From the NCBI RefSeq assembly GCF_018138715.1, contig NZ_JAGSHX010000006.1, positions 7,316,001-7,380,000 of the forward strand: a DNA stretch of 64,000 nt. Reading direction: 5' to 3'. Made by a program: the position numbers and the translations under genes. The DNA comes from Streptomyces asiaticus (lineage in GTDB: Bacteria; Actinomycetota; Actinomycetes; Streptomycetales; Streptomycetaceae). The first letter of the stretch is position 1, and every line of letters begins with the position of its first letter. The notes beneath the pieces are model-generated. The model was not told the DNA's origin. It was given only the letters and a program-made list of their open reading frames with translations, and searched no databases. Positions 32,436 to 61,586 of the stretch are shown one piece after another.

Positions 32436-32887
32436 CTGCTCCCCGCACCGCGGGGATGGCCCCTGGTCGATGACGACGCGGGCGCGTGCCGCGTCCTGCT
32501 CCCCGCACCCGCGGGGATGGCCCCGTCCTTGAAGCCGCCTACGCCAGGAGGAAGGACTGCTCCCTGCACCCGCGGGGATGGCCCCAGCCTGGTGAACGTG
32601 TCGATCACCTTGGGGGTCTGCTCCCCGCACCCCGGGGATGGCCCCACGGTGGAGCACGCACTGTACGGACGTATGCGCTACTCCCCGCGCCCGCGGGGAT
32701 GGTCCCAGCCTCGCCGCCGCGGCGGTCGGCCGCGAAGCCTGCTCCCCGCACCTGCGGGGATGGCCCCACCCAGGACCAGATCGCAGCCACCCGGGTGCGC
32801 TGCTCCCCGCGCCCGCGAATGGCCCCACAAGATCCTCAGCCGCTCCATGTGCGGCTCGCTGCTCCCCGCGCCAGACGGGATGGGAGC
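32436..32887 (+). CRISPR. Type I-E CRISPR array 1: 8 repeats, 7 spacers, degenerate
   Basis: Repeats of 27–29 nt start at 32436, 32496, 32557, 32618, 32678, 32739, 32800 and 32859. They share CTGCTCCCCGC at the 5' end and GGGGATGG toward the 3' end. All seven spacers are exactly 32 nt. Several repeats carry point changes or 1–2 base deletions within the stem (32436, 32618, 32800), and the last is heavily decayed, which marks the distal end on the right. The constant spacer length despite repeat damage shows that the array was built by a working I-E adaptation system and then drifted. Confidence 0.95.
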
Positions 32888-33024
32888 TGTGGGGTGCGTG
32901 GTGGGTTGAGCTGAGTGTCGGGCCAGGAACCTAATGTCCCGGGCAGAATTGGCAGGCGACCAGGATCGGCACCTTGCTATAGGACGTCGTAAATGAGCAA
33001 CATCTGTCGCTTCACTGTGCAATC

Positions 33025-34080
33025 ATGCCCACTATGCCTCTTATTGCAAGTGCCGACTGCGCGAATCGAAAGCACCATGAGGAGTGGGAACTCACTCTGA
33101 GTTCCGGCGGCGTACTGAAATGTAGGTTCTCCTTCGGGAATGTCGAGATGTCATGGGACCCCGGAGAAAGTCCCGACGTCCCCGCATACGAACTAACCCA
33201 GGAAGCTTCCGTTTTACTCGGGAAAAAGGCGATCCTAAGTAACTGGAAAGAAGGTGAAGTGCCCGAAGTTGCTGTCTACTCCAAGGAATCAAATACGGAC
33301 GTATACATGATGGTCGTTTTTCATCAAGCCGCAGAGAAAGATGCGCTAACCCACGCCGCCGAGCATCTTCGTCGAAACGGCCTAATGATGGTTAAGGCGG
33401 ATGCGAATATTGATGGAGCTGGGACATGCGAGCTCGCGTGCAGGCCAATCGAGGGAGCAACGGCCCAAATGTCCGAGCTTCTTGAGATCGCAACATATCT
33501 ACATCGAAGCACGTTGAGAATCCCTGAATTGCAACCCGCCTCAGCTGCGTCTGCGCTAGCCACCCTACAGGAAGGAGACGTGTGGAAGTTCATTGGTCTT
33601 AAAGAGAATGAATGGCTAGAAGTTAAAGCTCAACTGCCAGACATCAGCAAAGCGTCCGGAAAATTCACGCTCGCGAAGGACGTTACCCAATTCGCTAACT
33701 CGCGAGTCGGCGGGGTGTTGATTTACGGATTCTACACCAAGAACTCTGGCCAGGGTGACGTGATTCGGAAAGTGTCGCCAATCTCGTTTTCCCGCCGAAC
33801 AGAGGAAGCAATACAGGCAATTCTGCAAAGCCACACATACCCTTCCGTTACGGGTCTACTCGTCCACGCTACTCCTATTGATTCTGGCCATGTTGTGTGC
33901 GTCTATGTTCCGCCCCAGAGCGACTCAGCAAAGCCTTTCATCGTTGAAGGGTCGGGACTTTCCGAACTCGGAAAGGGTAATGTTTTTTCGGTACCAGTCA
34001 GAAGTGGTGACCGAGTTGCTCAAATCACGGGCAAGGCTCTTCATGTGCTGCTCGCTGGAAAAATACCACTGTCGGGCTGA
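33025..34080 (+). CDS. AlbA_2/Schlafen-type putative nucleic-acid-binding protein
   Basis: A 351-residue protein with no membrane segments. The first 170 residues match no family I recognise. The C-terminal part (about 195–345) is an AlbA_2-like domain: NEWLEVKAQLPDI, LAKDVTQFANSRVGGVLIYG, and later VVCVYVPPQSDSAKPFIVEG. This domain binds nucleic acid and occurs in Schlafen-like regulators and in several phage-defence proteins. The gene is visibly AT-richer than its neighbours and uses many A- and T-ending codons, a sign of recent transfer. It stands alone between CRISPR arrays 1 and 2. ATG 33025 was taken; ATG 33034 is also possible. A defence role is an inference from domain and place. Confidence 0.75.
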   Translation: MPTMPLIASADCANRKHHEEWELTLSSGGVLKCRFSFGNVEMSWDPGESPDVPAYELTQEASVLLGKKAILSNWKEGEVPEVAVYSKESNTDVYMMVVFHQAAEKDALTHAAEHLRRNGLMMVKADANIDGAGTCELACRPIEGATAQMSELLEIATYLHRSTLRIPELQPASAASALATLQEGDVWKFIGLKENEWLEVKAQLPDISKASGKFTLAKDVTQFANSRVGGVLIYGFYTKNSGQGDVIRKVSPISFSRRTEEAIQAILQSHTYPSVTGLLVHATPIDSGHVVCVYVPPQSDSAKPFIVEGSGLSELGKGNVFSVPVRSGDRVAQITGKALHVLLAGKIPLSG

Positions 34081-34299
34081 GGTCGATTCCACGCCGTCGT
34101 GGCCGTACGCGTGACGCGCGATCGACGTCCCGAGTAGCCCCCGCTAGGCTTCGGTTGTACGGCAGAGAGGCGCAGTAACCACAGCAGCCGAACACATCCA
34201 GCGGCGTATGTCCCAGGCCGTCGCACGACCTATATGCCTGCTGGCACCCGCACCGCATAGAGATACGTATCAAAAGACTTCTGACATCCAGGACTGACA

Positions 34300-34638
34300 T
34301 CAACGACGCCGGACAGGGGCGTCCACCAGCGTCCCTCTCAGACCGCCGCACCCGTCACCAACCGCAGCCGAGCCGGGCTCGGATCGAACTTCTAGTGCGG
34401 GGCTCATCTGGGTATGACGGAAACGGAGCCAGTCCGCGAGCGTGGAGAAGTCGGTGTCCACGAGGCCCTTGGCTGGGTCGACGCGATGAAGCAACGACGG
34501 TTCAGGGTGATTGACGTCGACCCACAGGCGGTCCATGGCGCTGATCTCGTCGTCGATCCAGATGAACGGCCGACCGTCGGCCCACTCGACGAGGTGGCGA
34601 GTCTTCCAAAGCAGGCCCGCGCGGGCCTGTGTCGGCAC
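34300..34638 (-). pseudogene. Remnant of a HAD-superfamily hydrolase (C-terminal part only)
   Basis: The reading frame encodes KTRHLVEWADGRPFIWIDDE followed by ISAMDRLWV, LLHRVDPAKGLVDTDF and STLADWLR, which is the C-terminal half of a HAD-like family common in Streptomyces (motif with paired Asp, DDE). The N-terminal half with the nucleophile Asp is missing, and upstream codons in this frame are unrelated. The last 30 residues of the frame also look non-native. It is therefore a truncated relic, probably left by the rearrangements that formed the accessory block. Bases 34081–34299 and 34639–34822 hold nothing I can support. Confidence 0.6.
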
Positions 34639-34822
34639 ACAGGGCTGGCCACTTCACCACGGGCAACCTCGGCAGTTCGACGCGTGGGGAGACGGCCTCG
34701 TTTTGCCGCCTCCGTCCTTCTCTGAACTAACAAGTCGAGAGCTCATGCTGACGGTATGTAAAGTTCTGTCAACTAATGTCCACTGTCGTCGTGCAGCTCC
34801 CCGCGGCGCCAAGACTGGATCC

Positions 34823-34972
34823 ATGGACATCGACGAGAGTCGCAACTCGGAAATTGACCCCGAGGGCGGGAGGCAGTGGAGCGATTGGCCCATCCGGGTG
34901 TTGATTGCTCTCCTATCGGCCGTCGTCGGCGGGGTAGCACAAGCTGTCGCAGAAAATCTGATGGGACCCTGA
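34823..34972 (+). CDS. Small membrane protein
   Basis: A 49-residue frame: an acidic N-terminus (MDIDESRNSEIDPEGG) followed by one hydrophobic helix (WPIRVLIALLSAVVGGVAQA) and a short tail. ATG 34823 is preceded only weakly (GGATCC). It ends 24 bases before the HTH-protein gene, so the two could be co-transcribed. Small single-pass proteins beside regulators are common in defence and toxin modules, but nothing identifies this one. Confidence 0.5.
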   Translation: MDIDESRNSEIDPEGGRQWSDWPIRVLIALLSAVVGGVAQAVAENLMGP

Positions 34973-34996
34973 TTAATAGCCTTGGAAGGAGTAATT

Positions 34997-35857
34997 GTGA
35001 CGGGGGGAAGGGTTAGGCGCATTGCAATGCCGTCGGAAGCACAGTTGGGGCGTGGGCCCCATCGGGTGATGCTGACGGAATTACATGCACTGTATCGGAA
35101 CGCCGGATGTCCGAGCACTCGCAGAATCAGCTCGACAGTAGACAAGATGGATTCCGCGAAAGATGTTATTTCGCATCAGGCGGTTGCAAACATCCTGAAT
35201 GGAAAGAATTTCCCTGCTTGGCCAAAGGTGGAGGTTCTGGTTGCCGCTTTGCTCTTCCTGGCGGGTTCGGTGGCTGATCGGCCCCAAATGGACAGGATTC
35301 GCGACCTTTGGCTAGCTGCGCACTACGAGGAAGAAGGGGCCGCTCCATCGGTCGGATTCATCAGTAGTTCGTCTATCGATGCGCCGTCACGGCCGGACCA
35401 GTCGGACCGTTCCGCCGAGCGTGATCCCTCGCCCGAGACAGACCCTTCCACCACTTTCTCGCCCGAGGAGCTGCGCGGGGAAGACTCCGAATATGAGAAC
35501 GTGACGGATGAGGACGTGTCCGATACCCCAACGGGGGGCGGAGGGTCCGACGCAGCCTATGAGGAGATGCGCGTCCGATTCATCTCAGGCGCTTCGTCCG
35601 GTCCGGCAATGTTCTCACTTGATTTCTTGGCCGGGGTGTTGCAGGTGACCGTAAACAGCCAGCATCCTCTGGGGTCGTCGATAGCTCGGGTAATGGAGCG
35701 CGGCGACGATGAGGCTTCCCGGCTCGTGAAACTCATGCTCATTTCGTGGGCACGCATGGAAGATGAAATCCCTAACGCGCGGATGCGGGCCCGAGTAGCG
35801 GATATCCGAAATGACTGGGGCCGCTATGCGCGGTGGCTGGAAGAGCCCGAAGGGTAG
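34997..35857 (+). CDS. HTH-containing protein with unknown C-terminal domain
   Basis: A 286-residue protein. GTG 34997 was chosen for the strong upstream GGAAGGAG; the frame is open from TTG 34982. The N-terminal about 90 residues (RGPHRVMLTELHALYRNAGC … SHQAVANILNGKNFPAWPKV) are the HTH module seen at the front of many streptomycete NTPase and signalling proteins. A disordered Ser/Asp/Glu-rich linker of about 80 residues follows, then a compact C-terminal domain (FSLDFLAGVLQVTVNSQHPL … ISWARMEDEIPNARMRARVA) without a family I can name. It ends 45 bases before CRISPR array 2. The composition is less GC-rich than the core. The role may be regulatory or scaffolding; this is not established. Confidence 0.75.
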   Translation: MTGGRVRRIAMPSEAQLGRGPHRVMLTELHALYRNAGCPSTRRISSTVDKMDSAKDVISHQAVANILNGKNFPAWPKVEVLVAALLFLAGSVADRPQMDRIRDLWLAAHYEEEGAAPSVGFISSSSIDAPSRPDQSDRSAERDPSPETDPSTTFSPEELRGEDSEYENVTDEDVSDTPTGGGGSDAAYEEMRVRFISGASSGPAMFSLDFLAGVLQVTVNSQHPLGSSIARVMERGDDEASRLVKLMLISWARMEDEIPNARMRARVADIRNDWGRYARWLEEPEG

Positions 35858-35902
35858 CACGATTGCCGGATTCCCCTCTCTCTCAAGGAGGCGAGCACGG
35901 AG

Positions 35903-36114
35903 CTGCTCCCCGCACCCGCGGGGATGGTCCCAAGGGCGCCGCCGAGTTCGCCACGCGCGCACGCGGCTCCCCGCACCCGCAGGGATGGTCCCGATATGGC
36001 TCCGTCCTCCGCGTTCTCTGGTGCCTGCTCCCCGCACCCGCGGGGATGGTCCCGAGGTGGAGATGGGGCACGCCGTGGTGAGCCTCTGCTCCCCGCACCC
36101 GCGGGGCCTTGCCT
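35903..36114 (+). CRISPR. Type I-E CRISPR array 2: 4 repeats, 3 spacers
   Basis: Repeats start at 35903, 35964, 36025 and 36086. The first three are 29 nt and nearly consensus (second with CGG for CTG at the start and one stem change); the fourth keeps its first 20 bases and then diverges. The three spacers are each 32 nt. The array begins only 45 bases after the HTH gene and lacks the TGCCGGA…GAAAGTG leader element at the spacing seen in front of arrays 1 and 3, so it is probably a fragment unable to acquire spacers. cas3 starts 258 bases downstream. Confidence 0.95.
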
Positions 36115-36371: not shown

Positions 36372-39281
36372 ATGGCATTTGGGGGCGAGTTGAGTCCGGG
36401 ATTGAACGATCGGCTCAGTGGGCCAGCGCGGACGGTGTGGGCCAAGCATGACCGGGACGGTCACGGCTGGCTCCCGTTGTGGCGGCACATGGAGGACAGT
36501 GCCGCGGTGGCGGGGCGGTTGTGGGATGAGTGGCTGCCGGGCAACGTACGGGCCCTGATTTCGAGGGCGCTGCCGGGTGGGCTTGATGATGGGCGCCGTC
36601 TGGCGGTCTGGCTGGCGGGGGTACACGACATCGGAAAAGCGACGCCCGCGTTTGCTTGCCAGGTCGAACAGCTCGCGTATGCGATGCACGATCAGGGCCT
36701 GGAGATGAAGACTCTGCGGCAGTGGGGAACCGATCGTCGGATGGCTCCGCACGGGCTGGCCGGGCAACTGCTGCTTGCCGAGTGGTTGGAGGAGCGGCAT
36801 GGGTTCACGGTGCGGCAGTCGGGGCAGTTCGCAGTCGTGGTCGGCGGGCATCACGGGGTGCCACCGGATCACGGGCAGGTCAAGGGGCTTGATGACCGTG
36901 AGGATTTGCTGCGTACGCCGGGGGAGAGTCGGGCACAGTGGCTGCGGGTGCAACAGGAGTTGCTGGGGGCGTGTGCCGAGGAGTTCGGGGTCGCTGGGCG
37001 GTTGGGTGACTGGCGGTCGGTGAAGCTGCCGCAGCCGGTGCAGGTGCTGTTGTCGGCGCTGGTGATCGTCGCCGACTGGATCGCCAGTAACCCCGACCTG
37101 TTCCCGTACTTTCCGCAGGCGGCGCACCAGAGGGGCGAGGAGCGGGTGGCGGCCGCCTGGCGGGGTCTTCAACTTCCGCCGCGTTGGCGGGCCCCGGAGC
37201 CGGTCGAGGGCATACCGGAGTTGTTCGCGTCGCGGTTCGACTTGCCTTCCGGGGCCGAGGTGCGGCCGGTGCAGGAGGCGGCGGTGGGGCTGGCACGCAC
37301 GATGCCGGAGCCGGGGCTGCTGGTGATCGAGGCGCCGATGGGCGAGGGCAAGACGGAAGCGGCGCTGGCCGCAGCGGAGATTTTGGCAGCCCGTTCGGGG
37401 GCGGGCGGTGTCTTCTTCGCTCTGCCGACGATGGCAACGGGCAACGCGATGTTTCCACGGCTGCTGGACTGGCTGAAGCGGTTGCCGACCGAGGACGGTG
37501 CGCGGTTGTCGGTGCTCCTGGCGCACTCCAAGGCCGCGTTGAACGAGGACTTCGCGGATCTGCTGCGTGCGGGTACGCAGCAGATCGCGGCCGTGGGGCT
37601 CGATGAGGAGGACCGGCCGGTGCGGCCGGGTGGTGAGGGGAGCGCGGCGTCGGCGGAGCTGGTGGCGCACTCCTGGCTGCGTGGCCGAAAGAAGGCGATG
37701 CTTTCGTCGTTCGTCGCGGGCACGGTGGATCAGCTGCTGTTCGCGGGCCTGAAGAGTCGGCACTTGGCGCTGCGGCATCTGGCGGTCGCGGGCAAGGTCG
37801 TGATCATCGATGAGGTACACGCCTACGACACGTATATGAGTACGTATCTGGACCGGGTGCTGTCGTGGCTGGGCGCCTATGGGGTGCCGGTGGTGGTGCT
37901 GTCGGCGACGCTGCCCGCGTCGCGGCGGCGGCAGCTGGCCGAGGCGTATGCGGGTGAGAGCGCGGATGGCTGCGCCGAGGGGTTCGACGCGGTGGAGGCG
38001 GCGGAGGCGTATCCGCTGCTGACCGCCGTGGCTCCGGGGTCGGCGCCCATGTTGGAAGCGCCTCCTGCGTCCGGTCGCAGTAGCGGCGTCCATCTCGAAC
38101 GCCTGGAGGACGACCTGGGCGTGCTCGCGGACCGGCTGGAGGCCGAGCTGGTGGACGGCGGATGCGCGCTGGTGGTGCGCAACACCGTCCAGCGGGTGCT
38201 GGAGACGGCTCGCGTGCTGCGCGAACGGTTCGGTGAGGGCGCGGTCACGGTAGCCCACTCGTGCTTCATTGACGTGGACCGGGCGGCCAAGGACGCGGCG
38301 TTGCTGTCACGGTTCGGTCCGCCGGGCAAGGCGAAGGATCGGCCGACGCAACGGCACATTGTGGTGGCCAGCCAGGTTGCCGAGCAGTCCCTGGATGTCG
38401 ATTTCGACCTGCTGGTCAGCGATCTGTGCCCGGTGGATTTGCTGTTGCAGCGGATGGGGCGGCTGCACCGGCACCAGCGCGGCGATGGCCAAGCGGAGCG
38501 CCCCTCGCGGCTGCGCACGGCACGCTGCCTGCTCACCGGGGTGGACTGGGCAGGAGAGGTTCCGGCTCCGGTGCGCGGCTCGGTCGCCGTCTACGGGGAG
38601 TACCCGCTGTTGCGCTCGGCCGCCGTCCTGCTGGACCACCTGGGCGGCGAGGCGCCGCCGGTGCGGCTGCCGCAGGACATCAGTCTGCTCGTCCAGGGCG
38701 CGTACGCGCGTGATTCTTCTGCGCCCGCAGGTTGGGCGGAGGCCATAGCTCGGGCACGGCAGCGGTACGAGGACTTCCGCGGGGATCAGGCCGAGCGGGC
38801 GGCGGTGTTCCGGCTGGATCCGGTGGGACGGCCCGGTCGACCGCTGATCGGCTGGGTCAGCGCGGGGGTGGGCGACGCAGATGACACCCGCGCCGGGCGC
38901 GCCCAGGTCCGCGACGGCCGGGAGAGTCTGGAGGTTGTCGTGGTGCAGCGGCGTGCCGATGGCGTGCTGACGACCGTCGACTGGATCGACCCCGGCAAGG
39001 CCGGACTGGAGCTCCCCGAGGATCGTGCGCCCGATGCGCGGGCGGCGATGGCCGCGGCGGCCTGTGGGCTGCGCCTGCCGTACCAGTTCTCCTTCCCTGA
39101 GGTGCTGGACCGGGCCATCGCGGAGCTGGAGCAGTTCTGCCCGCAAGCCTGGCAGGGCAAGGAGAGCCACTGGCTGGCGGGCGAGCTGATTCTCGTCCTC
39201 AACGCCGATTGTCAGACCCGTCTGGCAGGGTTCCAACTCCGCTACAGCGACGTGGACGGACTCGAGGTGACGCGTGACTGA
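36372..39281 (+). CDS. cas3: CRISPR-associated helicase/nuclease Cas3 (HD–DExH)
   Basis: Cas3 is recruited by Cascade after R-loop formation and degrades the target DNA. The 969-residue product has an N-terminal HD nuclease (WRHMEDSA with His39, VHDIGKATPAF with His85–Asp86, and GGHHGVPPDHG). The SF2 helicase follows, with Walker A MGEGKT near residue 325, IIDEVHAYDTY near 480, and LSATLPASRR. The C-terminal helicase lobe contains ASQVAEQSLDVDFDLLVSDL and LLQRMGRLHRHQR. All key residues are present, so it looks functional. ATG 36372 is taken. cse1 begins inside its stop region (8-base overlap). Bases 36115–36371 upstream hold no gene and should carry the operon promoter. Confidence 0.96.
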   Translation: MAFGGELSPGLNDRLSGPARTVWAKHDRDGHGWLPLWRHMEDSAAVAGRLWDEWLPGNVRALISRALPGGLDDGRRLAVWLAGVHDIGKATPAFACQVEQLAYAMHDQGLEMKTLRQWGTDRRMAPHGLAGQLLLAEWLEERHGFTVRQSGQFAVVVGGHHGVPPDHGQVKGLDDREDLLRTPGESRAQWLRVQQELLGACAEEFGVAGRLGDWRSVKLPQPVQVLLSALVIVADWIASNPDLFPYFPQAAHQRGEERVAAAWRGLQLPPRWRAPEPVEGIPELFASRFDLPSGAEVRPVQEAAVGLARTMPEPGLLVIEAPMGEGKTEAALAAAEILAARSGAGGVFFALPTMATGNAMFPRLLDWLKRLPTEDGARLSVLLAHSKAALNEDFADLLRAGTQQIAAVGLDEEDRPVRPGGEGSAASAELVAHSWLRGRKKAMLSSFVAGTVDQLLFAGLKSRHLALRHLAVAGKVVIIDEVHAYDTYMSTYLDRVLSWLGAYGVPVVVLSATLPASRRRQLAEAYAGESADGCAEGFDAVEAAEAYPLLTAVAPGSAPMLEAPPASGRSSGVHLERLEDDLGVLADRLEAELVDGGCALVVRNTVQRVLETARVLRERFGEGAVTVAHSCFIDVDRAAKDAALLSRFGPPGKAKDRPTQRHIVVASQVAEQSLDVDFDLLVSDLCPVDLLLQRMGRLHRHQRGDGQAERPSRLRTARCLLTGVDWAGEVPAPVRGSVAVYGEYPLLRSAAVLLDHLGGEAPPVRLPQDISLLVQGAYARDSSAPAGWAEAIARARQRYEDFRGDQAERAAVFRLDPVGRPGRPLIGWVSAGVGDADDTRAGRAQVRDGRESLEVVVVQRRADGVLTTVDWIDPGKAGLELPEDRAPDARAAMAAAACGLRLPYQFSFPEVLDRAIAELEQFCPQAWQGKESHWLAGELILVLNADCQTRLAGFQLRYSDVDGLEVTRD

Positions 39282-41004
39282 CTTAGCAAGCACCGGCGGC
39301 GGCCCGCCATCGTTCGACCTGACCTCCCAGCCGTGGATCCCGGTGCTGTACCGGGATGGTCGGCAGGACGAGCTCTCGCTGTGCGAGGTCGTCGCTCAGG
39401 CGTCGGACCTGGCGCGGATCGTAGGGGATGTTCCCACGCAGGAGTTCGCGTTGCTGCGACTGATGCTGGCGGTCGCGCACGACGCCCTGGACGGGCCGCG
39501 GGATGCCGATCAGTGGGCCGACTGGTGGGAGGACGAGGATTGCTTCGCCTCGGTGCCCTCCTATCTGGATGCTCACCGGGAGCGGTTCGATCTGCTCCAC
39601 CCGGTCGCGCCGTTTTTCCAGGTGGCCGGTCTGCGCACTTCCCGCGACGAGGTGTTCTCGTTGAACCGGATCGTTGCCGATGTCCCCAACGGAGAGCCGT
39701 TTTTCACCGCTCGCATGCCGTCGGTGGAGCGGCTCGGTTTCGCCGAGGCCGCACGCTGGGTGGTGCATGCCCACGCCTATGACACCTCCGGTATCAAGAC
39801 GGGCGTGGTGGGCGACAGCCGGGCCAAGAACGGCAAGGTGTATCCGCTGGGTGTGGGCTGGGCGGGCAATCTGGGCGGGGTGTTCGCCGAGGGGGACACG
39901 CTGCGCGAGACGCTGCTGCTGAATATGGTCGCCCACCACACCAACAGGCACCGTTCCGACCCGGATGACCGGCCGGCCTGGCGGCGCGAACCCTGTGGCC
40001 CAGGCGCTGCCCCTGGGCGGCGGCCGACGGGGGTTCGGGACCTGTACACCTGGCAGGGGCGCAGGCTGCGGCTGCACTTCGACAGCGACGGCGTCTATGG
40101 AGTGGTGCTCTCCTACGGTGATCCGTTGCCCCTGCACAATCTGCACGAGCGTGAGCCGATGACCGTGTGGCGGCGCAGTGTGACCCAGGAGAAGAAGCTT
40201 GGCGAGCCCCAGGTCTATATGCCGAAGGGGCACAATCCCGAGCGTGTGGTGTGGCGTGGCCTGTCCTCGCTGCTCGCCGAGCGTGCGACGGCATCGCAGA
40301 CCACCGAGGCCGCCCCTGAGCTCGGCGCCGGAGTCCTGGAGTGGATCGCCCAGCTCGCGACAGCGGAGGGGTATCTGCCGCGCGGGACCCGTTTCCGGGC
40401 CCGGATCGTGGGCGCGGTCTATGGCACTCAGCAGTCCGTGATCGACGAGATCGTCGACGACCGCCTGTCCATGGCCGTGATTCTGTTGAACCGTCAGGAC
40501 CGCAGGTATGCGCAGCAGGCGGTCAGCGCGGTGGCCGATGCTGACGAGGCGGTGGCCGCCCTGGGCGATCTGGCCGTCGACCTCGCTCGCGCCAGTGGAG
40601 CGGCCACCGAGGGGCCCCGTAGCCGGGCCCGCGAGCAGGGGCACGACGCGCTGGACGCCCCATACCGGTCCTGGCTCCAGAACCTGGGTGGTGCTGCCGA
40701 CCCCGAGGAACACCGCACGCGGTGGCGGACCGAGACCCACCGCATCATCCGCCGCATCGGCGAGCAACTGATCGCGGGCGCGGGCGACGCCGCGTGGCAG
40801 GGCCGCACCATCACCACTGGCAAGGGCGACTTGTGGCTCAACTCCGCCTACGCCGAACGGTCGTTCCGATATCGGCTTGCCAGGGTTCTCGGCGATCCAG
40901 AAGGCCTCAAGGCCGACACCGCCGCGCCGGAATCCCCGGGCGATGGTCCTGCGGACCTGGGTCCTGAAACCCCCGCAGCAGAAGCAGAAAGGGTCACAGC
41001 ATGA
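39274..41004 (+). CDS. casA: Cascade large subunit Cse1/CasA (Cas8e)
   Basis: The large subunit of the type I-E surveillance complex, which reads the PAM and recruits Cas3. The 576-residue product opens FDLTSQPWIPVLYRDGRQDE and continues with the family's FALLRLMLAVAHDAL and FDLLHPVAPFFQVAGL segments, all typical of Cse1. GTG 39274 overlaps the cas3 stop, and its own stop overlaps the start of casB as ATGA, so the genes are translationally coupled. Confidence 0.95.
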   Translation: MTDLASTGGGPPSFDLTSQPWIPVLYRDGRQDELSLCEVVAQASDLARIVGDVPTQEFALLRLMLAVAHDALDGPRDADQWADWWEDEDCFASVPSYLDAHRERFDLLHPVAPFFQVAGLRTSRDEVFSLNRIVADVPNGEPFFTARMPSVERLGFAEAARWVVHAHAYDTSGIKTGVVGDSRAKNGKVYPLGVGWAGNLGGVFAEGDTLRETLLLNMVAHHTNRHRSDPDDRPAWRREPCGPGAAPGRRPTGVRDLYTWQGRRLRLHFDSDGVYGVVLSYGDPLPLHNLHEREPMTVWRRSVTQEKKLGEPQVYMPKGHNPERVVWRGLSSLLAERATASQTTEAAPELGAGVLEWIAQLATAEGYLPRGTRFRARIVGAVYGTQQSVIDEIVDDRLSMAVILLNRQDRRYAQQAVSAVADADEAVAALGDLAVDLARASGAATEGPRSRAREQGHDALDAPYRSWLQNLGGAADPEEHRTRWRTETHRIIRRIGEQLIAGAGDAAWQGRTITTGKGDLWLNSAYAERSFRYRLARVLGDPEGLKADTAAPESPGDGPADLGPETPAAEAERVTA

Positions 41005-44429: not shown

Positions 44430-44430
44430 G

Positions 44431-45764: not shown

Positions 45765-45782
45765 TGAGCCAAATCACCGAAT

Positions 45783-48431: not shown

Positions 48432-48528
48432 ACAAGCTATACAAGCCCAGGTGGCCAGGAGCGGGCAAGCTCGGTATGGGGCCACTTCGATGGGCCTGAA
48501 CCGCAGCTGGGGTCTTTACGCTGGCGAT

Positions 48529-49221: not shown

Positions 49222-49320
49222 AAACGTCCCCGGACGTCTTGGGGCGTCCGCGTATGCGGTAACGAGGTCCTGGCCGGCTGCGCCACGATCGGGTCTCCAA
49301 CCAGCCCAGGGGGCCCCATC

Positions 49321-51419: not shown

Positions 51420-51446
51420 CCGAAACCGAAACCGAAGAAGAGGATT

Positions 51447-52179: not shown

Positions 52180-52272
52180 CTCGGTCACCGAGAACCACAC
52201 ACACGTTGAGTGGATCTTGCAGCAGCCTACGCATGCTGAGGACTCACCTGATCACGTACTGGCGAGGTGGAG

Positions 52273-53826: not shown

Positions 53827-53882
53827 CCTGCACGGGACGATCTCTGCGCGTAAGGCCCACTCGGACCGAACCGACATGGCAG

Positions 53883-54890
53883 ATGGGGACGATGGTGGAC
53901 GCGGTAAAGACAGTGGCGGTCTACTCCTTGGGCGGGACCATCGCCATGACCACGGATCCGGCCACCGGCGGTGTCGTACCGGCCCTTTCCGCCTTCGACC
54001 TCCTTGCCGCCATCCCCGGCCTGAGGGATCACGGCATCGACCTGCACGTGCACGACTTCCGGCGGTTGCCCGGTGCCTCACTCACCTTCGACGATCTAAC
54101 AGACCTTGGCGCGGCCATCGACAAGACCCTGTCCGGAGGCGACGTCGACGGGATCGTGATCACGCAAGGGACCGACACCATCGAGGAATCCGCGTTCTTC
54201 CTCGACATCCATCATGGTCACGAGCAGCCGGTCATCGTCACTGGCGCCATGCGCAATCCCATCATGGCCGGGCCCGATGGACCCGCCAACCTGTACGCGG
54301 CCGTCCTTGCTGCCGCCGACCCGCAGCTGCGCGGCGCTGGCGTGCTGGTCGTCCTGAACGACGAGATCCATACGGCACACCATGTCCGTAAGTCCCACAC
54401 CACCAGTCCCGCCGCCTTCACGTCGCCCGGCGCAGGCCCCGTCGGCCGGGTCGCCGAAAACCGCGTACGGCTGGCTGCCACGCTGCCCCGCCGATCCGAT
54501 CCCCTGGCACTGCCGAATCATGACGCGCGCGTAGGCCTGTACACGGTCAGCCTCGGCGACGACGGCACGCTCCTCAATGCGTGGGACGGCCGATGCGATG
54601 GGCTCGTCGTCGCCGCTTTCGGCGTTGGGCACGTCCCTCAGCGACTCGTTGAGAGCCTCGAACGGCTCGCCGCGCGAATCCCCGTGGTTCTCGCCTCGCG
54701 CATCGGCAACGGCCCCGTCCTGACCGGAACGTACGGCTTCCCTGGCTCGGAGAAGGACCTGATTAATCGGGGACTCATCCCCGCCGACCACCTCGGCCCC
54801 TACCAGGCACGCCTTCTGCTCCAGGCGCTGCTCGCCCAAGACGCGGACCGCGAGACGATCACCAAGAAGTTCACCGTCTTCGAGCGCTGA
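53883..54890 (+). CDS. Asparaginase-family amidohydrolase
   Basis: A 335-residue protein of the bacterial L-asparaginase fold. Both active-site signatures are present: SLGGTIAM (Thr19) and ITQGTDTIEES with its catalytic Thr–Asp, followed by VTGAMRNPIMAGPDGPANLY. No signal peptide is present, so it is cytosolic (type I-like); the residue set fits asparaginase, but other small amides are possible. Starts 53883 and 53892 are both ATG. It follows the XRE regulator (56-base gap) and precedes the PPC-domain gene (35-base gap), so these form one cluster. Its place in an otherwise nucleotide-flavoured gene set is unexpected. Confidence 0.92.
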   Translation: MGTMVDAVKTVAVYSLGGTIAMTTDPATGGVVPALSAFDLLAAIPGLRDHGIDLHVHDFRRLPGASLTFDDLTDLGAAIDKTLSGGDVDGIVITQGTDTIEESAFFLDIHHGHEQPVIVTGAMRNPIMAGPDGPANLYAAVLAAADPQLRGAGVLVVLNDEIHTAHHVRKSHTTSPAAFTSPGAGPVGRVAENRVRLAATLPRRSDPLALPNHDARVGLYTVSLGDDGTLLNAWDGRCDGLVVAAFGVGHVPQRLVESLERLAARIPVVLASRIGNGPVLTGTYGFPGSEKDLINRGLIPADHLGPYQARLLLQALLAQDADRETITKKFTVFER

Positions 54891-54925
54891 CCCACATACG
54901 TCAGCCCGGCCCCGAGAGGACTCAC

Positions 54926-55393
54926 ATGCGCGCCCACGAACTAACCACCGGCCGGACGTTTGGTGTCACCTTCGACCACGGCGAGGACTTCTTCGAGGCG
55001 CTCTCCACGTTCTGCCGTGACCACGGGGTTCGGCAGGGCTACATTCCCTCGTTCATCGGCGCGTTTGCCGAAGCCGAAATTGTCGGCGCCTGCGAGAAGC
55101 TTGAAGACCCGGACGCTCCGGTCTGGGCCCAGACCCATGTCACCAACGTCGAGGCATTTGGCGCTGGGACGATCGCCCACGATCTGGAGACGGGAAGCAT
55201 CCTGCCGCACATCCATGTTTCCGCTGGGCTGAAGGCGCAATCGGCCGACGGCCGCACCAGCCACCTCCTGAGCGCCAAGGTCCAGTTTCTCAGCGAGCTT
55301 CTCATCATCGAAGTCGTCTCCCCGAACATGACTCGGCCGCGGAACCACGCTCTGTACGACGTACCGCTGCTTACCTTCGGCGCGCCGGAGTAA
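54926..55393 (+). CDS. PPC/DUF296-domain protein
   Basis: This 155-residue protein consists of a single PPC (plant and prokaryote conserved)/AF0104 domain. It opens with TFGVTFDHGEDFFEALSTFC and has GYIPSFIGAFAEAEIVG and LPHIHVSAGL, with paired histidines that can bind a metal ion. Bacterial members are small trimeric proteins of unknown biochemical function. GAGAGGA precedes ATG 54926. The end of the cluster is marked by about 350 gene-poor bases. Confidence 0.9.
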   Translation: MRAHELTTGRTFGVTFDHGEDFFEALSTFCRDHGVRQGYIPSFIGAFAEAEIVGACEKLEDPDAPVWAQTHVTNVEAFGAGTIAHDLETGSILPHIHVSAGLKAQSADGRTSHLLSAKVQFLSELLIIEVVSPNMTRPRNHALYDVPLLTFGAPE

Positions 55394-56092: not shown

Positions 56093-56170
56093 CTGCTCCC
56101 CGCACCCGCGGGGATGGTCCCCCACGAAGACGAAGAAGTACGAGTCCGCCAGCCTGCTCCCCGCACCCGC
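56093..56170 (+). CRISPR. Isolated I-E CRISPR repeat–spacer–repeat (cluster 4)
   Basis: A perfect consensus repeat lies at 56093–56121, a 32-nt spacer at 56122–56153, and a second repeat starts at 56154 whose first 17 bases match before it breaks off at 56170. The orientation is the same as in arrays 1–3. No leader motif lies upstream. It is a fragment of the same array family, about 10 kb from array 3. Confidence 0.9.
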
Positions 56171-56312
56171 TGTGACTGAGCACGCGAGTTGGCCAGTCTG
56201 AGCACCCCCTGGTCTATCCGTGCAGGGTGTCGGTTTCGATGCCGGTCAGGTCGGCCGGCATCCCACAGGCGCGACGGTGGTGTCGACGAGGTGATTCCGT
56301 ACCGCCTTTCCC

Positions 56313-57186
56313 TAAAGGGTGTTGCAGAAGGCCGTGATCAGGGCATATCCGTTGTATGGCTGGGGTGTTGAGGGCCGAGCGGGTGTGGGTGGAGACGTTC
56401 GCCGGGTTGCGGGTCGATCAGTTCGGCCGGCTGCTGAAAGCCGTCCGGGAACGTGGTGGCGAGGGCTGCGGCTGGGGCCGTCCGTGGCGGCTGCCGCTGG
56501 CCGAGCGGGTGCTGCTGGTGGCCGTGTACTACCGCACGAACCTCACCATGCGGCAGCTCGCCCCGCTGTTCGGCGTCTCACCGGCGACGGTGTGCCGGGT
56601 GATCCAGCGGCTCGGTCCGCTGCTCGCGCTGGAGCCGGCCCGGGCCTCCGCCGAGGCCGCCGACCGGCTGTGGATCGTGGACGGCACCCTTGTCCCGGTC
56701 CGTGACCGGAAGATCGGCGCGTCCTCGCGTAACTACCGGTTCTCGGCGAACGTGCAGGTCATCATCGATGCGGAGACCCGCCTGGTGGTGGCCGCGGCCC
56801 GGCCGGTGCCGGGCACGACAGCGGATGCGAAGGCTTGGCGGGACTCCGGCCTGACCGAGCACTGTAAGGGCGTGACGGTCCTCGGAGACGGCGCCTACAT
56901 CAACACCGGGCTGATCGTCCCGCACCGCAAACGCCCCGGACGGCCGCTACTGAGGGGCGAGGAAGAGGACAACGCGCAGCATCGCAAGGTCCGCGCCCGC
57001 ATCGAGCACACCTTCTCTCGCATGAAGAACTACAAGGTCCTCCGCGACTGCCGGCAGCGCGGCGACGGCCTTCACCACGCCGTCCAGGCCGTCGCCCGCA
57101 TGCACAACCTCGCCCTCGCCGCGTGATCACATACGCCCGAACACCACTCCGACCTGCGCGATCACGACCTTCTGCAACACTCTTTA
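56313..57186 (+). mobile_element. IS5-like insertion sequence with 27-bp terminal inverted repeats
   Basis: Left end TAAAGGGTGTTGCAGAAGG (from 56313) and the right end (57160–57186) are inverted repeats of 27 bases with two mismatches. The element of about 874 bases carries one transposase gene. Both ends and the gene are intact, so it may still move. It lies 140 bases after CRISPR cluster 4. A target-site duplication could not be assigned with certainty. Confidence 0.9.
56356..57126 (+). CDS. Transposase, DDE_Tnp_4 type (IS5-like family)
   Basis: A 256-residue transposase. The N-terminal region contains a helix-turn-helix (TMRQLAPLFGVSPATVCRVI). The catalytic acidic residues lie in WIVDGTLVPV (Asp), VLGDGAYI (Asp) and IEHTFSRMKNYKVLRD (Glu), with the closing HAVQAVARMHNLAL. 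All three are present. ATG 56356 lies 43 bases inside the left terminal repeat and the stop is 33 bases before the right one, as expected for a compact IS. Confidence 0.93.
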   Translation: MAGVLRAERVWVETFAGLRVDQFGRLLKAVRERGGEGCGWGRPWRLPLAERVLLVAVYYRTNLTMRQLAPLFGVSPATVCRVIQRLGPLLALEPARASAEAADRLWIVDGTLVPVRDRKIGASSRNYRFSANVQVIIDAETRLVVAAARPVPGTTADAKAWRDSGLTEHCKGVTVLGDGAYINTGLIVPHRKRPGRPLLRGEEEDNAQHRKVRARIEHTFSRMKNYKVLRDCRQRGDGLHHAVQAVARMHNLALAA

Positions 57187-57639
57187 GGCGTGCCGCGCAG
57201 GGCGAAGAAGCGTGGTCCCCACAGTTGTCTTCCGCGCACGGCAAGGTCGAGTACCGCTCGGACGGCGGTTCAGGCGCCGACGTGCCTGCCTTGGACAAGG
57301 AGGGCGCCGAGTGGTGCCGCGCGTAGCCGTGCGCCGACGGCTCGTAGACGGACGAGCGGCCGTGACGGGGTGAGGGAGTCCAGAGCGCCGCCGGGACAGA
57401 CCATCACCTCGCCGCCGTGCTGCCGAGAGTGCGCAGGCGGCGGCCGAGTTCGAGGCCGAAGTACATCTGTTCCAGTTGGACCGTCCGTGGGGTGCGCTTC
57501 GGTCGGTAGTCCCACCAGGACAGCAGGTCCTCCAGCGCTCCCTGCGGCCGTAGTTGGTGCGCGGGTCGACTACCGTACGGTAGTCGGCGTACCAGCACCC
57601 CGATGCTGCTCGCCGCCCGCCCCGCCGACAGCGTGATTT
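57187..57639. other. Gene-poor stretch between the IS and the STAND gene
   Basis: Several short Arg/Ala-rich frames overlap here and none has a recognisable motif. A minus-strand frame at 57404–57655 ends LLSWWDYRPKRTPRTVQLEQ and then MYFGLELGRRLRTLG, which could be the relic of a gene cut by the IS. I cannot support it as a gene. Confidence 0.5.
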
Positions 57640-60600
57640 TCAGCCGTCGTTCCACCCCGCGCTACGGGGATGGAACCCATAGAAGTACAAGCCGCGCTCA
57701 CCTCCCACTGCCAGGCCGGTAGGGGTCCAGGTGCAGGCATTGAGGTGACTGTCGGTCCTCATTATGGTGACAACCTTCCCCGAGGTTCTGTTCCAGATCC
57801 GAATGGTCCCATCCTCGCTGGCTGTGGCGAGCCAGGCTCCATCGGGGGCGATAGCCAGGGCACTGACAATGCCGACGTGTTTCAGGACTTTGATAGTGGC
57901 CCAGTTGAATGTATCCCAGATCCGCAACTCTGATTCTGTGGAATAGAAGTATTTCCGATTAGCGGTGGCGAGCCACGTTCCGTCCGGTGCGATTGCCACT
58001 GCACTAGTTCGAAAGGTGCGCTCGAGGGATTTCACAGCCTTCCCGGTTGATCGGTCCCAGATTTGGACACCGGCATTAGTGGCGGCGACAACCCACGCCC
58101 CCTCCGGCTCGATCACTACCGAAGTTACCGATCCTGTGTGCCGCAGGATCTTGGCTCCGCTACGCTCCCAGATTCGTAAAGCAGGGCCTTTTCCGCCGCT
58201 GGCGCCCCAGGTTGTGTCTGGCGCGATCGCCACTGACATTACCCCTCCGGTGTGATCAGCTGGCCCGCTAAATGGAGCGCCAATGCCATGGTGTGTGTTC
58301 AGGTCCAAGAACCGTCGGGAGTTGTCAAGGTCCAATACGACGTTCGGGTGCCAAATTCGCAGAATGCCATCGTCACCCCCGGAGAGGATCTCTCTACTAT
58401 TGGATGTGATGGCCAACGCTCTCACCGGTCCGGTGTGACCTGCGCAGGTGGTGGGCTCAGGCGTATCTGTCGGCCAGAGCCGAATATTTCGGTCATTATG
58501 TGCGGTGACCAGCCATCTGCCACGAGGTTCGATCGCTACGGCATTGACCCCACCGGCACTGTCGGTTGCGGTTGTGGGGCGGCCTGTGGTCAGGTCCCAG
58601 AGCCGGACCGTTTCTTCGTCGGCGGTAGCAAGCCACGTAAAGTCCGGAGAGATTGCCACGGCGGAAACCGGATCCTCGTGCCTGAAAGTGGCGTTGAGGT
58701 CGCCGGTAGATCGATCCCAGATTTGGACCGTGTGGTCGCCGCTGATTGTGGCGAGCCACGCTCCTTGTGGTGCGATTGCGAGAGTCTTTACCTGGTCAGG
58801 ATGTCTGGAAAGTGTCTCGGTGGTGCCAGAGGGTCGGTCGCAGATGTGCACGATCCCGTCCTCGCTGGCCGCGGCGAGCCAGGTTCCGTCCGGCGCGATG
58901 GCCATTGCGCGAATCCAGCCCGTCTGCCCCGGGAGTTTGATTGTGGTGTGCGTGTTGGTGCCTTTGTCCCACAGTTGCACCGCTTTACCAAGACCTGCGG
59001 CGGCCAGCCAGGTTCCGTCGGGCGCGATTGCCATGGCAGTAACCGCAGTCGTGCCTTTGAGCGTGGTCGTGAGAGCACCGGTGGCTCGATCCCAGATCCG
59101 CACCTTCCGACTATTTCCGGCAGTGGCGAGCCAGGCTCCATCCGGAGCGATAGCCATCGTTCGAACTATACCCGCGCCGTTGAGGGTGGCTGAGAGAGCG
59201 CCCGTAGCGCGATCCCAGATCCGCACCTTTCCGCGAAACCCCCCAGCGGTGGCAAGCCAGGTTCCGTCCGGCGCAAGCGCTAGCGCCCTTACCAAACCCG
59301 GTTGGAGGGTGGCAGTCATGGCGCCGGAAGATCGATCCCAAATATGCAACGCATTTCTTATGCGGCTGATGGTGACAAGCCAAGTGCCGTCAGGAGCGAC
59401 TTGAACGGAATTTACTGCGCCAACACCAGTGAGCGTCCGAAGGGGTGCAGGGTCTGGGATATCGGGGGGTGCCCAGCGATTAAGCAACGTTGGATAACTT
59501 GATTGGATCTGTCGGGCCTGAACCTGGTCCTGCCAGCCCACCAGGGGTTCGAGGCGGCTGTGCAGGATCGTGCTTAGTGCGTGTGCAGGCTCCGTCGGCC
59601 CCAGGAGGTGGGCAGCGCGAGCAAGGTCGTTGGCCCGTTCGTCAGTAATAGTGGCGCCAATCCTTCTCAAGTCCCTCCAGGGAGCGGCAGCCCCTCGGTG
59701 GTGCAACCGCGCTTCGACCCAGCGAAGGTCCATGGCAAGTGCTTTTGCCTCCGTCGCGCAGCCCGCTGCGAGCAAGTGGTCAATGAGATGATCGAGTAGA
59801 TAGCCAATGGTCACCTCCCACCATGCGACCTGCGGCCGGGGCGCCGACGGCGTGAGTGCGGTGGCAGGAGCAAGATTGGCCTTGACAGAGTTCACGAGAG
59901 CGGCGTTAAGCACAGTCAAGCGATGGGAGCCGAGCTCACTTCGCAAGTACTGCCGGATGACGTCGTGCAGGCTGATCTGACTCCCTCCTGCGGCGCTCAG
60001 GGTCAGCAAAGACAGACCATTCAATGTGCGACACAAGTCCCGCGATTGTGTTGCGGTGAGCCCGCCAGTGACTGCCCATAGCTGAGATACAAGGGGTACG
60101 GGGATCGCCTCATGCTCGGCGAAGACCCCGAGTTCGACGAATCGTTCACTACCCCCGGCTGGGAGGAGCCTGGTCGCGGCCTCCAGAGTCGCCCGTACCG
60201 CCTTCTTGCGCTGCTTTGGGTCGTCGAGGTCCAGCACCGCTGACGGGTCGTCTACCCCGACAGGTCCCTGCTCCTGCAGCCGCTGAAGAGTGTCAGCTGC
60301 GGCAGAAGCAGGGTCTGCTCCGGCATCCACCTCTGCCATGATCAGCCGGTTAGTCATGCGCAACAGCAAGGGCCAGAGCCCGGTTGCCCTGAGGAGATCT
60401 TGCGTCACCGCCTCGGGCACGGGCGGCAACTCCCACGTGAGCACCCGCCGTGCTTGGAGTGGGGACATCTCGTCGACGTGGACCCGTTTGGCTCCCGACG
60501 GGAGGAGTGCGGGGATGCGCGTAGTGACCAGACGCACACAGCGCGCGCCTCCGACGAGGAAAGGCTCAAGCTGCTCCTGCTCCCAGACGTCGTCAAGGAC

Positions 60601-61293
60601 TAGCAGGGTGCGGCGGCGCTGATTCAGCAGTCTCCCCAGGTGGGCCCCAGCAAGAGCCGGATCATCGAAAGTCGCAGTGTCTCCAGTTACAAACCGGGTG
60701 ACTTCGCCGATCTTTGCCGCGATCGCCGCGCGGCCGCGCACCTCCCGACCTACGGTGATGATGTACACCCTGCCCCGGAAACGTCGCTGCACACCGCGGT
60801 TGGCACACACCAACTCGGCCAACGTTGTCTTTCCGAAGCCACCGGCGCCTTCCAACGCCGTGGTAATGCCCACTGCGCGGCGCCGCCGCGAGATCACGGC
60901 GAAGACGACCCGGTAGGCCTCCGCTCGATCGATCACCCAGCCGGGCACGATCGGAGGGGACGGCGGTGGAGGATCATCGGCTCCTGCCCTGGCGCGCTCT
61001 TCCAGTCGCCCCAGAACCAGGGACAGCAGCAGGCCCAGCACGCTCAGCAAACCAAGCGAAGGCCAGGGATGCTGGCGCAGCACGTCTAGTGCACCGGGCC
61101 AACGACTCCTTGATGACGCCTCATTAGCGGCTAGGCCGCCCAGGACAGCCACGATGCTCGCTGTAGCCGCCAGGGTGACGACTGCTCCCCTGTGTAGTCT
61201 CCCTGCCCTCACACGGATCCTCGTTGCACTGGCGAGCCAACGACTGCGTCGGGGAGCTCGTCCGTCTGCTCCATAGCACCCTCTGCTTATCAC
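57640..61293 (-). CDS. Membrane-anchored STAND NTPase (NB-ARC) with 14 WD-type repeats
   Basis: A 1217-residue protein. Two hydrophobic helices lie near 38–56 and 78–95, so the rest may be tethered at the membrane. The NB-ARC NTPase follows: P-loop GAGGFGKTT (149–157), Walker B LVLDDVWE (231–238), RCVRLVTTR sensor and a GLWPLLLR helix. A helical linker leads to about 14 blades of the APDGTWLAT type from about 630 to the end, enough for two seven-bladed propellers. STAND proteins are held inactive until the repeat domain binds a trigger; bacterial NB-ARC/NACHT proteins include many anti-phage sensors. The effector is not obvious unless the membrane segments or N-terminus serve as one. It lies between CRISPR clusters 4 and 5. 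The start at 61293 is uncertain. Confidence 0.9.
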   Translation of the reverse strand: MISRGCYGADGRAPRRSRWLASATRIRVRAGRLHRGAVVTLAATASIVAVLGGLAANEASSRSRWPGALDVLRQHPWPSLGLLSVLGLLLSLVLGRLEERARAGADDPPPPSPPIVPGWVIDRAEAYRVVFAVISRRRRAVGITTALEGAGGFGKTTLAELVCANRGVQRRFRGRVYIITVGREVRGRAAIAAKIGEVTRFVTGDTATFDDPALAGAHLGRLLNQRRRTLLVLDDVWEQEQLEPFLVGGARCVRLVTTRIPALLPSGAKRVHVDEMSPLQARRVLTWELPPVPEAVTQDLLRATGLWPLLLRMTNRLIMAEVDAGADPASAAADTLQRLQEQGPVGVDDPSAVLDLDDPKQRKKAVRATLEAATRLLPAGGSERFVELGVFAEHEAIPVPLVSQLWAVTGGLTATQSRDLCRTLNGLSLLTLSAAGGSQISLHDVIRQYLRSELGSHRLTVLNAALVNSVKANLAPATALTPSAPRPQVAWWEVTIGYLLDHLIDHLLAAGCATEAKALAMDLRWVEARLHHRGAAAPWRDLRRIGATITDERANDLARAAHLLGPTEPAHALSTILHSRLEPLVGWQDQVQARQIQSSYPTLLNRWAPPDIPDPAPLRTLTGVGAVNSVQVAPDGTWLVTISRIRNALHIWDRSSGAMTATLQPGLVRALALAPDGTWLATAGGFRGKVRIWDRATGALSATLNGAGIVRTMAIAPDGAWLATAGNSRKVRIWDRATGALTTTLKGTTAVTAMAIAPDGTWLAAAGLGKAVQLWDKGTNTHTTIKLPGQTGWIRAMAIAPDGTWLAAASEDGIVHICDRPSGTTETLSRHPDQVKTLAIAPQGAWLATISGDHTVQIWDRSTGDLNATFRHEDPVSAVAISPDFTWLATADEETVRLWDLTTGRPTTATDSAGGVNAVAIEPRGRWLVTAHNDRNIRLWPTDTPEPTTCAGHTGPVRALAITSNSREILSGGDDGILRIWHPNVVLDLDNSRRFLDLNTHHGIGAPFSGPADHTGGVMSVAIAPDTTWGASGGKGPALRIWERSGAKILRHTGSVTSVVIEPEGAWVVAATNAGVQIWDRSTGKAVKSLERTFRTSAVAIAPDGTWLATANRKYFYSTESELRIWDTFNWATIKVLKHVGIVSALAIAPDGAWLATASEDGTIRIWNRTSGKVVTIMRTDSHLNACTWTPTGLAVGGERGLYFYGFHPRSAGWNDG

Positions 61294-61472
61294 TCACAGT
61301 GAAGCGTTCGTGACCGCGACACCGCAGGCGAGGCCGCATGTAGCTCGTGTGACGCATTGGTGCTGAGACCGCTCGGTCCGCTCTGCACCCAACGGGACAC
61401 CCTCGGGGAGAGGCTGAGCTGAGTACGGAGGTGGCCAGCTGGAGCGCTCAATGGCCAAGTGGAGCGCTCAGT

Positions 61473-61554
61473 CACACCCGCGGGGATGGTCCCGGAAGAC
61501 GTGCTGACAACCTCGAAGTCGAACTCTGCTCCCCGCACCCGCGGGGATGGTCCC
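61473..61554 (+). CRISPR. Isolated I-E CRISPR repeat–spacer–repeat (cluster 5)
   Basis: A left-truncated repeat ends at 61493 (CACCCGCGGGGATGGTCCC intact), a 32-nt spacer spans 61494–61525, and a perfect repeat spans 61526–61554. About 16 bases of further spacer-like sequence follow before the end of an IS at about 61571, so the IS seems to have landed in the next spacer. The orientation is the same as in the other arrays. The upstream tract carries a short duplication (GGAGCGCTCA at 61441 and 61461). Confidence 0.9.
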
Positions 61555-61586
61555 CAGCCGTTCGAAGCGGCGCTAAGGCGTGTCCG

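Follow-up and report, generated by a model that had tools for sequence, protein, structure and literature searches.

What produces a type I-E clustered regularly interspaced short palindromic repeat (CRISPR) locus in which clusters of one repeat, all facing the same way, alternate with gene modules? The question is posed by a 64,000-nt stretch of the Streptomyces asiaticus genome (contig NZ_JAGSHX010000006.1, positions 7,316,001 to 7,380,000), hereafter the window. A sequence-only reading of the window had listed five clusters, and suggested either that one array was split by inserted cargo or that the repeats act as recombination points collecting modules into a composite defence island. Our analysis indicates that this is probably an ordinary, complete I-E locus, and that successive arrivals of DNA in this lineage interrupted both of its arrays.

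The five clusters lie where that reading had placed them, on the plus strand, and belong to one I-E repeat family (consensus CTGCTCCCCGCACCCGCGGGGATGGTCCC, 61-bp period). Its claim that every intact spacer is 32 nt held for nearly all of them; the spacer after 46336 is about 31 nt, as is the one after 103569, beyond the window. Across the whole genome (11.88 Mb, six contigs), a 24-nt repeat core allowing three mismatches gave 35 matches and a backward control gave none, far beyond chance. All 35 lie on the plus strand of a single contig, within about 71 kb (7348496-7419652), and they add two clusters past the window end, bringing the total to seven. PADLOC profiles recognise a complete type I-E Cas set between C2 and C3, and the arrays have the 29-nt palindromic repeat, 32-nt spacers and (at C1 and C3) predicted leader of this type. 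The parts of the locus are as follows, with positions beyond 64,000 given as window equivalents.

32356..32435, plus strand: predicted leader of array A, by leader profile
32436..32883, plus strand: cluster C1, putative leader-side piece of array A, eight decaying repeats, the last broken after ATGG
35903..36114, plus strand: cluster C2, putative trailer-side (old) piece of array A, no intact leader
36372..45764, plus strand: cas operon, cas3, cas8e, cas11e, cas7e, cas5e, cas6e, cas1e and cas2e, by PADLOC profiles
45768..45847, plus strand: predicted leader of array B, by leader profile
45848..46540, plus strand: cluster C3, putative leader-side piece of array B, about 12 repeats, the last four decaying
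56093..56170, plus strand: cluster C4, a repeat, a spacer and then the first 17 nt of a repeat
61477..61576, plus strand: cluster C5, the remainder of the cut repeat, a spacer, a repeat and about 22 nt of a spacer
64135, plus strand: cluster C6, two repeats
102715-103710 (L035:10715-11710), plus strand: cluster C7, 39 kb downstream, 16 repeats and one decayed, the largest array

The break between C4 and C5 can be read to the nucleotide. It is made by the following features.

56166..56170: target duplication CCCGC, left copy
56171..61476: Tn7-like element, 5,306 bp, inverted ends, TGTGACTGAGC...TTGGCCA
61477..61481: target duplication CCCGC, right copy
56311..57188, plus strand: nested insertion sequence (IS) inside the element, with a DDE_Tnp_4 transposase at 56356-57126 (Pfam)
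57640..61293, minus strand: cargo NTPase, 1,217 aa, NB-ARC type with WD40 repeats

Excising the element in silico together with one CCCGC restores a perfect 29-nt consensus repeat with a 32-nt spacer on both sides. Because of this restored repeat and the 5-bp target duplication, C4 and C5 are demonstrably one array cut by the element. Its termini, TGTGACTGAGCACGCGAGTTGGCCA on the left and, inverted, TGTGACTGAGCGCTCCACTTGGCCA on the right, are each bordered by CCCGC. A second, internal copy of the end-repeat is clear at the right end (18/20 nt) and weak at the left (9/20). Inverted ends with repeated 20-25-bp sites and a 5-bp duplication are Tn7-like traits. Querying 110 kb of S. asiaticus around the locus with the transposition proteins of a related element, L190 (described below; L numbers denote loci), gave no match to TnsA, TnsB, TnsC or TniQ by tblastn at E 1e-6, a threshold that could have overlooked more distant transposases. 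We therefore assign the element to the Tn7-like family by its ends and duplication only, as a predicted non-autonomous member and not a complete Tn7-like transposon.

The WD40 repeats of the cargo NTPase were recognised by Pfam, and its P-loop (GAGGFGKT) and Walker B motif were read by eye; matches to AfsR/HaaT-type NTPases all fell under cut-off. Relatives of its first half (E<=1e-60) occur in 22 of 246 Streptomyces genomes, this one counted. None of 19 other loci with such relatives had the same ends within 1.5-kb flanks, and mobility of the cargo was thus not seen elsewhere. The gene's 3' end (57640-57670) contains a CRISPR-like hairpin, which differs from the repeat by more than ten mismatches and was dismissed as chance. 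The nested IS has an inverted self-match (56311-56339 with 57160-57188), and no target duplication was identified for it.

Leaders were scored with a profile built from 35 intact leaders of other genomes, leaving out S. asiaticus and its relative S. violaceusniger NBRC 13459 (hereafter SV). The controls were 1500 random 90-mers from the same 110 kb, arrays included; a more stringent version, anchored to the repeat, used 20,000 sequences. By this measure leaders are clear on C1 (49.3 bits; score reached by 0/1500 controls, anchored 1/20,000) and C3 (59.9 bits; 0/1500, anchored 0/20,000). C7 (29.8 bits; 3/1500) fails the anchored test (9906/20,000) and has a probable, though displaced, leader. 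C2 (17.0 bits; 52/1500, anchored 1013/20,000) and C4 (14.0 bits; 218/1500, anchored a suggestive 393/20,000) retain leader remnants at most, and C6 (11.4 bits; 633/1500, anchored 7790/20,000) has no leader. The earlier remark on the two small clusters was borne out: neither has a clear leader, and they end within a repeat or at an IS.

The remaining breaks become visible by comparison with SV, which came first when named genomes were scanned for Cas8e (98% identity at the protein level, against 72% for the runner-up; the list may omit records of this or very near genomes). The SV locus aligns with ours in five blocks of 94-98% identity. Our segments 28735-32525 and 35903-46059 join in SV inside one seven-repeat array (A', from 1519026), and 35903-46059 and 64135-83283 join inside one six-repeat array (B', from 1529152). 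C1 with C2 (array A), and C3 with C6 (array B), thus have an uninterrupted counterpart in a relative, and appear to be halves of arrays that are whole in SV. Spacers 1 and 3 of C2 match spacers of A' at 30/32 nt each, while no other pair among the compared spacers of the two strains reaches 21 matches. Trailer identity to SV is 97.7% for C2 and 98.3% for C6. Splitting by inserted DNA, as the sequence-only reading had proposed, is therefore demonstrated for C4/C5 and indicated for C1/C2 and C3/C6 by the contiguous SV arrays. Its suggestion of a single ancestral array did not hold: C1+C2 and C3+C6 belong to two different cas-flanking arrays, and C7 is a third.

That reading had also named what would speak against it, namely relatives with separate, leader-bearing arrays of no shared ancestry; for C1/C2 we found the opposite, two old spacers being common with SV. 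It is very improbable that the clusters are independent arrays sharing an orientation by chance, with ordinary gene order between them. C3 has its own predicted leader, C7 probably has one despite failing the anchored test, and tandem leader-bearing arrays occur elsewhere, but C4 and C5 are one array, which refutes the idea there, and C1/C2 and C3/C6 are contiguous in SV, which tells against it for these pairs as well unless the SV state is the derived one.

Two further observations concern SV repeats and one concerns phages. A second copy of the gene flanking array A, with an I-E leader and two repeats, lies on SV contig 1 (L208, 8687800-8691900), with 83% identity over 1,165 bp and homology that ends within the array; L207 is another SV repeat pair, without a recognised leader. 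Spacers of C3 gave no phage match. One C7 spacer region weakly matches the Streptomyces phages JustBecause and Kela (27/28 nt, E 0.03), and another a Gordonia phage (E 0.09).

The DNA that separates the array halves comprises about 3.0 kb in array A and about 17.6 kb in array B, the latter made up of blocks E1 and E2, C4 and C5 with their element, an IS fragment and an acetyltransferase/LysR-like pair.

32884..35902: insert in array A, about 3.0 kb, absent between the same array parts in SV
33025-34080, plus strand: SLFN/AlbA_2 gene (Pfam AlbA_2, 1.7e-6)
near 34408-34717: HAD-like remnant, 80.6% to a Streptomyces plasmid HAD gene
34982-35857, plus strand: unknown open reading frame within the array A insert
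46635..52004: gene block E1, with HD, NUDIX, HAD, radical SAM, unknown and CYTH genes (Pfam)
52267..55393, plus strand: gene block E2, with HTH, asparaginase and PCC-domain genes (Pfam)
about 61577..62480 (edges approximate), minus strand: IS fragment (DDE_Tnp_1), which terminates the C5 array piece
62522-63073, minus strand: hexapeptide acetyltransferase (Pfam)
from about 63165, running past the window end, plus strand: LysR-like gene, read by eye

No right inverted repeat was found for the IS fragment. E1 occurs as a single 5.1-5.4-kb block of 75-79% identity in 29 of 392 genomes of the genus besides this one, and some part of the query is matched at E<=1e-60 in 106 of the 392 (this one counted), only one or two candidates having been scored in each genome. 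A search for repeats in the 1.5 kb around the 29 copies gave one match with eight mismatches and nothing better. E2 lacks both E1 and repeats in the two stretches examined (L284 and L285). Since E1 lies away from repeats in those 29 genomes, and E2 in L284 and L285, the modules are not habitual CRISPR companions. Neither block is present in SV, where only three matches of 61-293 bp at 69-77% were found. Among plasmid records, the matches listed were only partial (64-83%). Genes distantly related to HTH and HAD of the inserted blocks were also placed beyond the window, at about 80800-83000 in window equivalents as judged from the SV counterpart (L205); in the SV region the HAD protein matches at 41% and the HTH protein at 50% over 120 aa.

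We could also ask whether these modules amount to a defence island, as the sequence-only reading had it. Proteins of the NB-ARC-type/WD40 and AlbA_2 kinds are sometimes linked with defence, and five of ten non-Cas proteins scanned matched PADLOC profiles, the other five giving no match: the NUDIX protein (PDC-S07, 3.6e-9), the radical SAM protein (pVip, 7e-26), the protein at 50235-51419 (mad2, 3.4e-8), the HTH protein (HTH_VI, 7.7e-6) and the NB-ARC/WD40 protein (HEAT-ARM_XIII, 1.6e-35). These matches are, however, single proteins from different candidate systems. The E1 radical SAM protein, considered as a prokaryotic viperin, was rejected: it scores 65 bits against the NCBI viperin equivalog cut-off of 180, and NirJ-type families score higher. 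E1 stands apart from CRISPR elsewhere, as does E2 in both stretches checked. The claim of a composite island thus finds no support, and a selected one built around CRISPR-Cas is scarcely credible.

Broken arrays are by no means confined to this locus. A period scan of 80 I-E loci, SV included, found two arrays in 38, one in 16, three in 16, four to seven in 9 and none in 1. At least four repeats on the strand opposite cas occur in 44 of the 80, mainly, to judge from array positions, in the array that precedes cas3. There were 31 pairs of same-orientation arrays separated by 0.25-8 kb, and 27 were usable after four with N in the gap were dropped. The second array had a leader (>=35 bits) in 15 of the 27, at least one of which, L173, merely flanks cas2, and lacked one (<=15.5 bits) in the remaining 12. 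From eight of these 12 leaderless gaps we scanned 10 proteins; three had no Pfam match, and the other seven were two OGG-like proteins, two IS transposases, a NACHT protein, a group II intron maturase and a methyltransferase. In this group, then, I-E arrays seem to be split routinely by IS, introns and genes, our locus being an extreme case. When the proteins between our own clusters were searched against the 80 loci (tblastn, E 1e-15), relatives were found for the two IS transposases only. Among the titles and abstracts listed from a mostly open-access literature, none describes arrays split in this manner, which is weak evidence.

A gene for an OGG-like 8-oxoguanine glycosylase (PF21790) recurs between array pieces upstream of cas3 in three loci (L111:3711-4610, L113:5149-6054 and L122:5088-5921), the second piece of L113 being preceded by a leader of its own. 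No further copy was found in the 80 loci, the SV region or our 110 kb (E 1e-10).

We propose the following course of events. The locus would have started with a pair of arrays facing the same way, array A lying before cas3 and array B after cas2. Array A, with its leader in C1 and its oldest spacers in C2, would have been broken by the AlbA_2 insert, and array B, with its leader in C3 and its old end in C6 beyond the window, by the larger block. A Tn7-like transposon carrying the NB-ARC-type/WD40 gene would have inserted in a repeat and split the piece that is now C4 and C5, presumably mobilised in trans by TnsABC/TniQ that an autonomous relative supplied, and an IS would have landed inside it afterwards. 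The leaderless pieces may now be silent.

This course of events requires that our strain gained DNA rather than that SV lost it, which we consider likely. SV-like arrays are favoured as ancestral because leaders are clear on C1 and C3 and none is significant on C2, C4 or C6, because several other same-orientation loci, such as S. sparsogenes L135, have a contiguous, leader-bearing array directly before cas3, and because 38 of the 80 loci scanned have exactly two arrays. The converse, in which the many-cluster state is ancestral and SV lost the modules by recombination between direct-repeat arrays, fusing C1 to C2 and C3 to C6, is unlikely. It would need all clusters to be direct repeats, which they are, and it agrees with the decay of C1 and C3 at their ends, as in complete arrays, and with the frequency of tandem leader-bearing arrays (the 15 of 27 usable pairs above). 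Yet C2 and C6 are without a significant leader, as right-hand halves would be, E1 has no recognisable repeats in 29 other genomes, and two independent deletions would be required.

Several results weigh against insertion into two SV-like arrays. At the AlbA_2 and E1/E2 junctions no inverted repeat and no target duplication were found, and no array B spacers are common to the two strains. C1 and C3 end in decaying repeats, like true array ends, which insertion into the middle of an array does not predict. The leader-like stretch touching the C4 repeat (393/20,000) may start a separate array. No genome that could serve as a close outgroup turned up: the right flank (E<=1e-60) was found in 4 of 392 genomes, this one counted, and the stretches fetched from the other three have no repeats. 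SV is known from a draft assembly, and the period scan is crude, having missed C4 and C5 in our own window and called one false cluster at 25742.

Some of these results would fit a different role for the repeats. The sequence-only reading's idea of repeats as active recombination points is unproven; no integration signature appeared at the AlbA_2 or enzyme-block junctions, and a search for end-repeats there and at the C5 IS gave, apart from CRISPR repeats, only two matches, one of 6 bp and a weak inverted one of 12 bp. A version in which array-bearing modules entered arrays A and B by crossing over in the repeats is doubtful. Such modules would have left a foreign trailer behind C1 and C3, and a decayed leader in front of C2, C4 and C6. 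This version would account for the decay at the ends of C1 and C3 and for the marginal leader-like stretches in front of C2 and C4, and it fits the second SV copy of the array A gene with leader and two repeats, whose homology ends in the array, as well as the 12 of 27 pairs with a leaderless second piece, some of them behind gene modules. A 29-bp repeat is, however, short for homologous recombination, no match in the other fetched loci was found for the sequences that follow C1 and C3 or precede C2 and C6, E1 has no association with arrays in other genomes, and there is no leader signal before C6. The stretch before C4 matches one unrelated locus, L281, at 88%. We retain the insertion of DNA into two ancestral arrays as the probable explanation.

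The ends of the element in C4/C5 belong to a family found across the genus. Their pattern (up to three mismatches) occurs in at least 134 of 392 Streptomyces genomes, often as inward-facing pairs, with one backward-control match among the matches listed. Twenty regions were fetched because the matches listed suggested paired or adjacent ends; in 15 an exact 5-bp duplication, of differing sequence, surrounds a pair 0.7-7.9 kb apart, and the other five have none. Three more distinct copies with exact 5-bp duplications (L089, L094 and L096) bring the verified total to 18, of which 12 are shorter than 2 kb. Among the 18, L184/L195 and L186/L197 are the same element in two genomes (about 91%).

A single verified copy, L190 (G274:C18:546900-557500), has TnsA-, TnsB-, TniB/TnsC- and TniQ-like genes. 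Its TniQ scores 64.7 bits (cut-off 27) and its TniB/TnsC AAA protein 29.5 (cut-off 22.4). The 686-aa TnsB relative matches TnsB chains in PDB at 7e-8 and falls under cut-off elsewhere (Pfam rve 19.1, cut-off 32.6; NCBIfam IS481 37.3, cut-off 224), and the TnsA-like protein, at 24.8 bits, is just under its cut-off of 26.5. In sequence, both its ends agree with the consensus at 23/25 nt. The gene content of the other copies ranges from nothing to a handful of unrelated genes. When open reading frames were called with a filter on third-codon-position GC (GC3), two of the other 17 copies had no gene and eight exactly one, L196, counted among the eight, in fact holding more. The cargo seen includes an EF-Tu-like GTPase, an M20 peptidase, an ABC ATPase, an inositol monophosphatase and a methyltransferase, TetR with SDR, AraC with PhyH and an AAA protein, and a patatin with a metallo-beta-lactamase fold and an IS481-type integrase. 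In the tblastn of the L190 proteins, which covered 50 fetched loci and our 110 kb, TnsB and TnsC matches were confined to L190, L191 and the neighbour of L190 had TnsA pieces, and L094 had a TniQ scrap.

That neighbour directly adjoins L190 as a second copy with TnsA remnants, the ends of the two being separated by a shared 5 bp. Two ends likewise stand back to back, exactly 5 bp apart, in L077, L080, L081, L184 and L190, suggesting tandem insertion at one target.

One may speculate that Streptomyces harbours genus-wide transposable cassettes in which unrelated genes, often singly, lie between conserved Tn7-like ends and are moved in trans by rare TnsABC/TniQ copies, and that I-E arrays are habitual landing or exchange sites for gene modules. 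If so, arrays would be broken time and again into pieces with and without leaders, separated by genes. The family's ends (up to four mismatches) were absent from the 80 I-E loci (1.62 Mb). The cassettes suggest a route of gene movement in Streptomyces. A survey of Tn7-like transposons with defence cargo reportedly takes transposase genes as its starting point, and a transposase-centred survey would miss this route. None of the titles and abstracts listed from the mostly open-access literature describes non-autonomous Tn7-like cassettes in Streptomyces, again weak evidence.

Beside the leader of array A lies one further gene.

31334..32185, plus strand: 283-aa gene adjoining the array A leader, 98.6% identical and in the same place in SV, with no Pfam match

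The fragment reading has a practical side. When repeat clusters without leaders lie scattered around cas genes, it is easy to count them as separate arrays. Here a transposon footprint exact to the base, together with a near relative, indicates that several are fragments, with consequences for how arrays are counted, how spacers are dated and when a defence island is claimed.

Compared with known systems, our element shares with Tn7-like transposons (TnsABC-TniQ) the TGT...ACA ends, the repeated 20-25-bp sites and the 5-bp duplication. It differs in having no match to the L190 transposition genes, and the 17 other copies likewise give no match to TnsB or TnsC, with one TnsA piece, one TniQ scrap and one IS481-type integrase among them. 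Cargo-bearing Tn7-like elements, with defence and other cargo and Actinobacteria included, have been surveyed (PMC8649781); the main text of that survey does not contain the words 'nonautonomous', 'non-autonomous' or 'Streptomyces'. The locus itself has the full Cas set, 29-nt repeat, 61-bp period and conserved leader of I-E loci in Streptomyces and its relatives, but both of its cas-flanking arrays are broken and its seven clusters extend over 71 kb. CRISPR arrays interrupted by IS elements, which split them by inserting in a repeat or a spacer, are a known case; the interrupters here also include gene modules and a Tn7-like cassette.

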